Part shown: positions 1-7,552 of the stretch, piece after piece | Layout of the letters: each line of letters begins with the position of its first letter | Position numbering within the stretch: position 1 is the first letter of the stretch | From: Rosistilla carotiformis | Lineage (GTDB): Bacteria > Planctomycetota > Planctomycetia > Pirellulales > Pirellulaceae | Direction: 5' to 3' | NCBI RefSeq assembly: GCF_007753095.1 | Contig: NZ_CP036348.1 | Coordinates: forward strand, 4,278,001-4,342,000 | Length of the DNA stretch: 64,000 bases | Notes under the pieces: generated by a model | Databases searched by the model: none | Told to the model about the DNA's origin: nothing | The model's input: only the letters and a program-made list of their open reading frames with translations | Translations under genes and position numbers: made by a program

Positions 1-963
<963 letters not shown>

Positions 964-999
964 GGAAATCGGGTGGCTGGAAGGTGGTCGGTAGATAAC

Positions 1000-1034
1000 A
1001 AAAAAACCCCAAAGGCCGGAAGCCTTAGGGGTTT
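1000..1034 (-). terminator. Intrinsic terminator in the cimA leader (attenuator)
   Basis: On the minus strand, arms 1034-1022 and 1016-1004 pair over 12 of 13 positions, including four G-C pairs (CCCC/GGGG) and GGC/GCC. The loop is 5 nt (1017-1021) and seven T follow (1006-1000). It sits between the leader peptide stop and the cimA ATG, so it would cut transcription before the structural gene. A competing pairing is visible: 1055-1062 (GGGATTGT on the RNA) against 1029-1036 (ACAAACCC), plus AGCC at 1067-1070 against GGCT at 1022-1025. This would open the 5' arm of the terminator. The hairpin and T-run are seen; the switching is inferred. Confidence 0.8.
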
Positions 1035-1075
1035 GTTAACGTTTGCACTAAAACACAATCCCACTCGGCTCGGCG

Positions 1076-1135
1076 TCATGTCGACGGAGCGATAATAATG
1101 ACAGCGACGTCAATAATCGAAGTGGTTTGCATCAT
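1076..1135 (-). CDS. Ile/Val-rich leader peptide upstream of cimA
   Basis: A 19-codon ORF, MMQTTSIIDVAVIIIAPST, with five Ile and two Val, including a run of three Ile codons (1099-1091). It lies between a good promoter and the terminator hairpin in front of cimA. A hairpin pairing 1098-1106 with 1071-1079 (8 of 9 positions) overlaps these codons. A ribosome stalled there for lack of charged Ile-tRNA would block that hairpin and favour the antiterminator. This is the classical layout of ilv/leu attenuation in Proteobacteria. No Shine-Dalgarno site is obvious. Either of the two adjacent ATG codons could be the start. Function is inferred from composition and position. Confidence 0.65.
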   Translation of the reverse strand: MMQTTSIIDVAVIIIAPST

Positions 1136-1169
1136 AGAGGTGTCTACGGAATCTGAGCCGTGAACCGGA

Positions 1170-1198
1170 AGGTTAGCGTCGATCGCGGCAAGTGTCAA
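1170..1198 (-). promoter_or_regulatory. Sigma70-type promoter for the cimA leader
   Basis: On the minus strand TTGACA (1198-1193, perfect -35) is followed by a 17-nt spacer and TAACCT (1175-1170, a moderate -10). Transcription would start near 1163, about 28 nt before the leader peptide ATG at 1135. The -35 match, the spacing and the location make this the best promoter candidate in the window. Confidence 0.6.
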
Positions 1199-5843: not shown

Positions 5844-7552
5844 TGCGAGTCTATCCCTACCGTATCGGCGATTGGAGCCACTTGCTGTCGGAAGCTGTGA
5901 AATAGATCCGCGAGATCCCGGCGTTGCGCATCGGTCAAAGGCTCCGGTGATTGGCAAAATACTTGGATCTGAAAACTAAGGCTGTCGCTTTTAGCGACCG
6001 TTGCATCGCCAGCCCCAAATAATGATTTGACCAAGCGTTTTAGATCATTCAACCTTCCCGCGTGGCGTTGCATTTTCTTTACTTGAGGAGCAAGAAACGC
6101 GCGATAGTCATTGTCGAACAGACCTGTGATCACATGTCCGTACTGTTCAGGTTCCTTTGAGACGTCAAATGCCATGAAGTCGCCCCCACGATCGAATCCC
6201 GCGTCTCGATAGCTAGAGAACCTGATGTTCGTATCATCCCAGCCTTGACCTCGATAGCAGTCGGTTAGATAGTGCCAACCATTTGTGTAGGGACCGTCGA
6301 TGGATGCTTGCGCGCGAAGTTCGCCTTTACTCAACTTCCACAACTGCGAAACTTCACCATTTACATTGCCACTCTCTCGGACGACATGCTGGTAATCGTC
6401 ATTCTGCCAATCGTCAAGCAACTCAGGAACAAGCGAGCCCGCCGGCTGAGCCAACAGCTCGATATCGGCACGTGAAGCTGATGCCATGGAACCGCCCAGG
6501 GCGATCGATGTGTATTGCACCAACGCCAACACCCCAAACATCCCCAACACAACGGCACGTTCTCGGGGCTCGAAAAAACTGGAAATCCCCCTCCGTTTTC
6601 GCTTCCGCCTAGGCTGGGCGGCACCAGCGTCACCCGATTGTTGCTGATGCCAATAGGGCGGAATCGAAGCAGGCCAAAGGAAGCAAAGAAAACGCTCGGT
6701 GCTGAAAATCGCTAAAAGAGTCAAGGCAAAGAAAACCACCCCTAACATTTGGTGATAGACACCCACATCCACAGGCAACGAAAACTCCTCCTTCAGGACA
6801 ACAACGGCGGTAATGCGTGAGATATTTGCGACCAGCACCCAGAAGAACGCAGCCCCAAGAACCAATAACGACCTCCCAATGCCTGCCCGATTTAGAATCA
6901 AATAGAGCCCGGTACAGAACAAAGCCGAGAACAGGGACTGCACGCCGCTGCAGGCTTCTTCCACTTGGTATGATTGAGCAGGCAAACGGAGAACGACGCC
7001 ATCAACCATGTGGCGGTATCCAATTAAATCCAAGATGCCACTCGAAAGTTGCGTCGCAATTCCCTGTAAAAAGACTATCAACTCCCGATCGTAGCTGAGT
7101 GGAATAGGGATCACTAACCACAACAGCAACCACGCTGGCAGAGCCTTCTTCGCAACCTGCCAGCCACCAAGTGCGTAGATGATCGCGGCGAGCAAAAACA
7201 TGCTCGAGACCCCTGCAAGCCAGGGAGATACCAGCAGCGTTGCAACCAACAGGCTAGCAAAGGCAATGGCGACCAAAAACCGACGCAGCCATTTAGAAGC
7301 GGGTTTGTAGTTTGGATCGGCAAAGGCTGCAACAATCAAGGCAAGCGCCGCCGTGATCCCCAGCGGAAAGAAGCTGTAATGGTCGCGATACCAAAGCCAC
7401 CTCGCCAGCCTGAGGGAGAGCGGAATGTAAGCCGCGAAAAGGACCAACAGTAGGCAAAGTCCGAAGCGGTCGATCGAAAGCCAGCTGGGAAGGAAGCTAT
7501 AAAACGAACGCACTCCCCGGGAAGGGAGTGCGTGTGGAGTTTCTGTTGTCAC
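5840..7552 (-). CDS. Exosortase (XrtU-like) with EpsI-like C-terminal domain
   Basis: 570 residues, GTG start. About eight membrane helices occupy residues 28-290. The catalytic triad is visible: Cys201 in EEACSGVQS, Arg246 in NISRI and His267 in YHQMLG. Exosortases cleave and transfer PEP-CTERM proteins at the inner membrane. After a basic linker (RRKRKRR) and another membrane segment, residues about 370-570 form a soluble domain with WHYLTDCYRGQGW, like the EpsI/DUF3485 partner often fused to exosortases. The planctomycete exosortase U type is the likely subtype. The preceding gene encodes a PEP-CTERM protein, the probable substrate. A terminator-like stem-loop lies in the first 15 codons. 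Confidence 0.88.
   Translation of the reverse strand: MTTETPHALPSRGVRSFYSFLPSWLSIDRFGLCLLLVLFAAYIPLSLRLARWLWYRDHYSFFPLGITAALALIVAAFADPNYKPASKWLRRFLVAIAFASLLVATLLVSPWLAGVSSMFLLAAIIYALGGWQVAKKALPAWLLLWLVIPIPLSYDRELIVFLQGIATQLSSGILDLIGYRHMVDGVVLRLPAQSYQVEEACSGVQSLFSALFCTGLYLILNRAGIGRSLLVLGAAFFWVLVANISRITAVVVLKEEFSLPVDVGVYHQMLGVVFFALTLLAIFSTERFLCFLWPASIPPYWHQQQSGDAGAAQPRRKRKRRGISSFFEPRERAVVLGMFGVLALVQYTSIALGGSMASASRADIELLAQPAGSLVPELLDDWQNDDYQHVVRESGNVNGEVSQLWKLSKGELRAQASIDGPYTNGWHYLTDCYRGQGWDDTNIRFSSYRDAGFDRGGDFMAFDVSKEPEQYGHVITGLFDNDYRAFLAPQVKKMQRHAGRLNDLKRLVKSLFGAGDATVAKSDSLSFQIQVFCQSPEPLTDAQRRDLADLFHSFRQQVAPIADTVGIDSQ
7509..7532 (-). terminator. Terminator-like stem-loop at the exosortase gene start
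   Basis: CGCACTCCC (7509-7517) and GGGAGTGCG (7524-7532) form a perfect 9-bp stem with a 6-nt loop. On the minus strand TTCGTTTTA follows. It lies 70 nt after the PEP-CTERM stop and inside codons 7-14 of the annotated exosortase frame. It may terminate part of the PEP-CTERM transcripts, so that less exosortase than substrate is made, or protect the upstream mRNA 3' end. The stem is seen; the role is inferred. Confidence 0.5.

Follow-up and report, generated by a model that had tools for sequence, protein, structure and literature searches.

The stretch of Rosistilla carotiformis DNA analysed here (64,000 nucleotides; hereafter, the window) opens with cimA, the gene for citramalate synthase, which lies on the minus strand at positions 1-963. 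The window holds the first 321 of its 526 amino acids, and the gene runs past the window edge; the whole protein scores 660 bits against TIGR00977 (cutoff 450), and the part within the window scores 443. The next open reading frame after cimA, on the same strand, is valS, encoding valyl-tRNA synthetase (TIGR00422, 907 bits). In the coordinates of locus L003, cimA ends at 7383 and the likely valS ATG is at 7303, and a scan of this junction for terminators and promoters gave none between the two genes. We infer that cimA and valS are co-transcribed.

Upstream of cimA, positions 1198-963 of the minus strand hold a leader region, and a base-by-base check bore out the coordinates that a preliminary description of this DNA had assigned to it. 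The promoter proposed there was TTGACA and TAACCT, 17 nucleotides apart. The -35 element TTGACA (1193-1198) and the spacing stand, but TAACCT (1170-1175) is a weak -10 element that matches only 3 of the 6 positions of the TATAAT consensus, and a promoter scan of the leader region called no site at this pair. The leader peptide, MMQTTSIIDVAVIIIAPST*, is encoded at 1076-1135, with a second ATG at 1132. As already noticed, its 19 codons include five Ile and two Val codons, and the regulatory codons fall between 1091 and 1117: Ile-Ile at 1117-1112, Val at 1108-1106, Val at 1102-1100 and Ile-Ile-Ile at 1099-1091.

Three secondary structures follow or overlap this peptide. An early hairpin across the Ile codons (1071-1106, pairing 1106-1098 with 1079-1071) forms 8 of 9 pairs, one of them G-U; it had been proposed from its pairing, but it is weak and absent from the minimum-energy fold of the window leader. 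The antiterminator has a 5' strand at 1055-1070, made up of AGCC (1070-1067) and GGGATTGT (1062-1055), and a 3' strand at 1021-1036 that overlaps the 5' arm of the terminator. Its main pairing, 1062-1055 with 1036-1029, is present as first described, except for a single A-A mismatch that leaves 7 of 8 pairs; AGCC also pairs, but with GGCU at 1024-1021, one position away from the partner originally named (1022-1025). When the segment 1072-1020 is folded in isolation, it forms this antiterminator at -15.9 kcal/mol. The intrinsic terminator hairpin (1034-1004, -18.1 kcal/mol) ends in a run of seven T (1006-1000), just as the preliminary description had it.

Further upstream, an imperfect GC-rich inverted repeat, recognized by eye, lies at 1205-1256, between the leader promoter and an open reading frame at 1305-1619. 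This frame, on the minus strand and upstream of the leader, encodes 104 amino acids, and comparison with NCBIfam and Pfam gave it no match at our cutoffs.

Conservation of the leader in relatives

Compared with shuffled sequences, the window leader is only modestly stable (z -2.0 and -1.8), and the strong part of the evidence against chance is comparative. A cimA query matched 147 of 149 family genomes at a loose cutoff, at which the paralogue leuA is included; at 1e-70 it matched 54 of the 57 genomes from the order and 24 of the 79 from the phylum, each of the three counts including the own genome. In all sampled members of four genera, the query matched only at the level of leuA (g47: G047, G093, G116, G131 and G142; g67: G067, G100, G118, G133 and G143; g51: G051, G096 and G132; g49: G049, G095 and G117), and these genera therefore seem to lack cimA.

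We took the upstream regions of 115 family cimA genes, of which 102 carry an intrinsic terminator; the other 13 were set aside. An Ile-rich open reading frame (ATG start, 8-50 codons, ending 10-95 nt before the terminator, with at least three Ile in seven codons) precedes the terminator in 60 of the 102, against 1.9 in dinucleotide shuffles (sd 1.4, maximum 5). Family-wide recurrence of such leaders supports the Ile-controlled attenuation that the preliminary description had read into a single locus. By a looser leader score, 85 of the 102 regions are positive against 9.9 in shuffles, so that about 10 of 102 are positive by chance; leaders scoring below 5 were dropped from the counts. The motif TTGAC[ACG] lies 20-110 nt upstream of the leader start in 64 of these 85 leaders, where 9.4 are expected from shuffles.

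The two other members of the genus in our sample keep the leader with a changed sequence (MQPHSIIDIAVIIIAPST and MPTVSIIDFAVIIIAPST), and a peptide frame of other sequence is present in most family and order loci examined. Of 50 cimA loci from the order outside the family, 46 were used and five set aside as ambiguous; 34 of the 46 reach the loose score, shuffled controls having been made for the family set. The sample from the phylum beyond the order comprised 23 loci, two of which (L163 and L165) lacked the start motif; among the 21 examined, L146-L150 have clear leaders, and L168 scores at the threshold, with a TTG start. One leader from outside the order, where the clear cases are L146-L150 and L171, reads MNIQNIIISIIINIGGD. 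Among 80 named cimA loci, mostly from other phyla, five score at least 5, which is not above the shuffled family set (9.9 of 102); only L171, from Planctomycetota, is convincing, and nearly all the others have no leader. The preliminary description had named absence of the short frame and the hairpins from relatives as evidence against its proposal. The comparison did not go against it: the genus retains the leader, and an Ile-rich leader with a terminator is present in most cimA upstream regions examined from the family and the order, joined in the main class by an antiterminator at the stop codon.

Two side observations came from these searches. An Acidobacteria metagenome-assembled genome (L202) carries MHPDRGIDTRIAITGITGGTPGG* 24 nt before a strong terminator upstream of cimA, for which transfer, convergence and chance are all possible explanations. 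The covariance model R1, run on the own genome, gave 14 matches at E up to 10, one of them cimA and one leuA. We rejected it as a finder of the regulon. Of the 13 matches inspected, four (L273, L280, L283 and L286, at G000 C1 264791, 6409113, 2458362 and 7094769) lie on or just after sequences that, by eye, resemble tRNAs and have a strong terminator directly after them, and others are terminators after unrelated genes or weak intragenic matches.

Codon content of the leaders, leuA and valS

After Ile (16.5%), Val is the most frequent residue in the cimA leaders (11.6%), with Leu at 4.6%. Runs of four Val in seven codons occur in 13 of the 102 family regions against 0.2 in shuffles; the same measure for Leu upstream of cimA gives 2 of 102 against 0.5. 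Runs of Thr, Ser and Phe, like those of Leu, are not enriched in the 102 family regions, and runs of five Ala in seven are slightly so (3 against 0). Separately, the Ile codons of the cimA leaders are mostly ATT (272 of 390, 70%), compared with 109 of 435 (25%) in the cimA coding sequences of L004-L032, where ATC is the usual Ile codon; we have no explanation for this ATT bias.

The cimA paralogue leuA has a leader of its own. In the own genome, MTIQLHLLSLYLRRAAKGEC* and a terminator lie upstream of the gene. A terminator is present at 18 of 21 leuA loci, and 15 of these 18 have at least four Leu in seven codons, against 0.4 in shuffles; none of the 18 has three Ile or three Val in seven. Judged by its peptide frame and terminator, the Leu-rich leader of leuA is built on the same plan as that of cimA, both in the own genome and in most relatives checked.

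In 88 of the 114 family genomes with a usable cimA place, valS follows cimA on the same strand at up to 2.6 kb, a distance taken from the end of the matched 321 residues, so that a few of these adjacent pairs may have an intervening gene. G046, in which cimA is divided between contigs, was assigned to the adjacent group manually. In the remaining genomes, valS is on another contig (18), far off (3) or has no match (5). Among the 80 named loci, a valS match is near in seven, one of which is upstream and in the opposite direction. Four more distant Planctomycetota (L151, L154, L155 and L156) have valS close behind cimA and no detected leader, and the gene pair may therefore be older than the attenuator.

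The Val content of the leader is associated with this neighbor. The idea arose from Val-free leaders lacking valS (L009, L022, L030, L149 and L150), and the link was thus first noticed in part of the data later used as a test. In the last 20 residues, the 65 family leaders that have valS downstream of cimA carry 3.03 Val on average, and the 13 that do not have it carry 0.85 (p 2.8e-6, taking no account of relatedness), and neither Ile (p 0.06) nor Leu (p 0.86) is clearly different; the remaining seven of the 85 leaders were left out for an unclear valS position (G098, G089, G026 and G065) or for having no valS match. At least two Val are found in 56 of the 65 leaders with valS and in 2 of the 13 without. 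The corresponding figures for the order are 21 of 26 and 1 of 4, with adjacency read by eye and part of the leaders known before the idea was tested; restricting the count to the order leaders fetched later (L312-L331) leaves 7 of 9 and 1 of 2, which are small numbers. There are exceptions in both directions: L033 and L071 in the family and L329 in the order have at least two Val with no valS near, and L012, L125, L127, L325 and L326 have no Val despite valS being near.

On a cimA tree of 110 rows, 77 of them with both traits, adjacency changes at least 11 times. Rows with valS away number 17 without two Val and 3 with, and rows with valS near number 11 without and 46 with; the family rows are those with a longer cimA, and they include every clear non-adjacent case that has a leader, together with a selection of the adjacent cases. 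Because no valS was found within about 0.9 kb, L146, L149 and L150 were counted as non-adjacent. If the leader senses only Ile, Val being a neutral stand-in for Ile or a general branched-chain signal, then its link to valS would reflect shared ancestry. Strict independent pairs lend themselves to this view: the six on supported branches divide into 2.3 that go the same way, 1.1 that go the other way and 2.6 with no difference, which is not significant. So does phylogenetic regression (PGLS) under pure Brownian motion, with p 0.055 for Val count and 0.067 for Val share. Likewise, none of 19 regions upstream of a valS placed elsewhere (20 were fetched; L334 had no valS match) carries the Val leader that was predicted there, and valS therefore need not be attenuated. 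Against sensing of Ile alone, PGLS with fitted lambda links valS adjacency to both Val count (p 0.0042, lambda 0.87) and Val share (p 0.0001, lambda 0.55), and Pagel's dependent model is preferred over the independent one (LR 26.1, p 3e-5). Moreover, Ile counts show no such link (PGLS p 0.84), and the leuA leaders lack Val and Ile runs altogether. We therefore hold the Ile-only explanation to be possible and worth keeping in view, without thinking it the probable one. The case that the cimA leader reads Val because valS shares its operon is good, if not final.

Geometry of the switch

The commonest class of leaders has its stop codon 22-37 nt before the terminator, and its antiterminator spans that codon, as in the pairing of GGGCUUAGGGC with GCCCUGAAGCCC. 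The genus of the window differs, in that the antiterminator begins just past the stop codon, which lies 41 nt before the terminator. Taking all classes together, 93 of 106 leaders have the centre of their best-pairing 18-mer at -6 to +17 relative to the stop codon. This search began about 70 nt upstream of the stop and ended 26 nt short of the hairpin, a limit of about +13 in the main class. Duplexes between the stop region and the terminator arm average -17.1 kcal/mol, compared with -14.0 kcal/mol when swapped between leaders, and none of 10000 permutations was as good. Those of the own genus do not stand out: 22 (L001), 12 (L004) and 24 (L005) of the 105 swaps pair equally well.

Because MAFFT misaligned the stop region when applied to 44 class members, its alignment was discarded and covariation was counted on anchored blocks. 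In 76 leaders, the inner stem is paired in 304 of 380 cells, against a mean of 272 (sd 4.8, maximum 289) in 2000 permutations in which the arms were swapped, with the best of three registers taken for each leader in real and permuted data alike. At least four of five positions pair in 53 of the 76, 31 in the commoner register and 22 in the other. Among these leaders, which were selected for pairing at four or more positions, the base before the stop forms C-G (10), U-A (7), G-C (7), U-G (3) or G-U (1) in the commoner register and fails to pair in 3; in the other register, the pair at -1 fails in 7. The main-class antiterminator thus overlaps the leader stop codon and covaries with the 5' arm of the terminator. 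Covarying stems, which the preliminary description had suggested looking for, are found in the main class; the genus of the window shows the pairing as well, with too few sequences for covariation.

The regulatory codons are also placed in a consistent way. Across 80 main-class leaders, 39-50% of the residues at codons -6 to -10 are Ile, and none of those at -1 and -2 is. In our model, a ribosome stalled at this distance would not cover the stop region. Folding, which had also been suggested as a check, gave opposite answers in two calculations on whether ribosome position decides the structure. In equilibrium folds, the terminator is on average favored wherever the ribosome stands (mean 0.82-0.94), and the switch must therefore be kinetic. 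A calculation on RNA truncated at the 5' arm, which followed this negative result and assumes a ribosome footprint of 15 nt from the A site, gave mean sequestration of 0.68 for a ribosome stalled at codon -8, compared with 0.22 for one at the stop (n=85). With the region shuffled the mean was 0.43, and 76 of the 85 leaders exceeded their own shuffle mean. The window leader itself gave 0.72 at codon -8 and 0.35 at the stop.

Collectively, these data make it very likely, in our view, that the window leader is a ribosome-mediated transcription attenuator of cimA. Transcription of the leader would start from the TTGACA promoter, with a ribosome translating the peptide as RNA polymerase proceeds. 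When charged tRNA-Ile (and tRNA-Val) is ample, the ribosome would reach the stop codon and cover the antiterminator strand, and the terminator would then halt transcription in the cell ahead of cimA. When Ile is short, the ribosome would stall on the Ile run and leave the antiterminator strand free to capture the 5' arm of the terminator, and cimA would be transcribed, together with valS where valS follows. The codon set would match the operon: Ile for CimA, the enzyme of threonine-independent isoleucine synthesis, Val serving valS where that gene lies behind, and Leu in the sister leader of leuA.

Control could instead be translational or depend on another factor, with the frame recruiting ribosomes or a protein binding the leader, and with a constitutive terminator. 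The terminator is favored throughout in the equilibrium folds, and in Streptomyces coelicolor, the ilvB and leuA leaders are reported to resemble attenuators, with codon mutants that behaved otherwise (PMC1262725). We nonetheless consider such control improbable: end-product codons at a preferred distance and a covarying antiterminator predict that ribosome position is the signal, and the leader stop lies 112 nt before cimA, with the terminator in between. We think it very improbable that the leader is a tRNA- or ligand-binding riboswitch, similar to a T-box, with an incidental short frame. A stem, an antiterminator and a terminator would also suit the expression platform of a riboswitch, but Rfam gave no match at gathering score in 14 relatives, its best match in the own leader region was the trpB motif, at 25 bits against a gathering score of 59, and Ile codons recur while the other residues of the peptide vary. 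T-boxes are among the Rfam families. Finally, an upstream unit's terminator that happens to lie beside a random frame would fit the own-region energy z-scores of only about -2, but this can practically be dismissed, as most of the cimA upstream regions examined in the family and the order show this arrangement again, far above shuffles in the family set.

Relation to known attenuators and wider meaning

Ribosome-mediated attenuation is a known mechanism. In Escherichia coli, the ilvGMEDA, thr, leu and pheST attenuators rely on ribosome stalling at end-product codons; pheST demonstrates that a synthetase operon can be attenuated, and the leaders of thr and ilv each respond to more than one amino acid. 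Unlike these, the cimA leader would be shared by the biosynthetic enzyme of one amino acid and the synthetase of another, and the main antiterminator of planctomycetes sits on the stop codon.

Among the open-access papers listed in our literature searches, none reported a cimA leader or attenuation in planctomycetes; the preliminary description, too, had been aware of no planctomycete case for citramalate synthase. In one study, planctomycete leader genes appear as a distance statistic (PMC4833913). The ilvBNC attenuator of Corynebacterium (the ilvB-II uORF motif) is like the cimA leader in having an Ile/Val/Leu-rich peptide, an intrinsic terminator and an antiterminator; it controls acetolactate synthase and is reported there only from Corynebacterium (PMC11109978, PMC10272879). 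In contrast, the leader described here precedes cimA (and valS) in Planctomycetota and is marked by Ile and Val without Leu. Actinobacteria likewise have a Leu-rich leader before leuA, the LEU element, and a classical attenuator before leuS; the former is described as a pseudoknot in which the Leu codons are paired to the Shine-Dalgarno box by the base stem (PMC1262725). The planctomycete leuA leader differs in having an intrinsic terminator. The trpB motif (RF04312) also consists of two hairpins, the second a terminator, but it comes from Firmicutes and Fusobacteria and from other genes (PMC11109978). With the own leader so far below its gathering score, the resemblance is probably a chance likeness of terminator layout.

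The genes, the clade, the geometry and the codon matching look new. Three elements were absent from the preliminary description: valS with its matching Val codons, the Leu-rich leader upstream of leuA, and the placement of the antiterminator on the stop codon in the commonest class. On balance, we favor, with less assurance than for the single locus, a broader model in which Planctomycetota have widespread branched-chain attenuators whose leader codons evolve with the genes behind them, Ile for cimA, Leu for leuA and Val wherever valS lies. The Val signal would be lost when valS moves off, and one leader would sense both the product of an enzyme and the substrate of an unrelated synthetase.

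If this is true, a branched-chain attenuation system on the paralogues cimA and leuA would be common to much of the phylum. The gain and loss of Val codons with valS would be a natural experiment on leader peptides following operon content, and what determines the codon mix of an attenuator would become testable by genomics and simple reporters.
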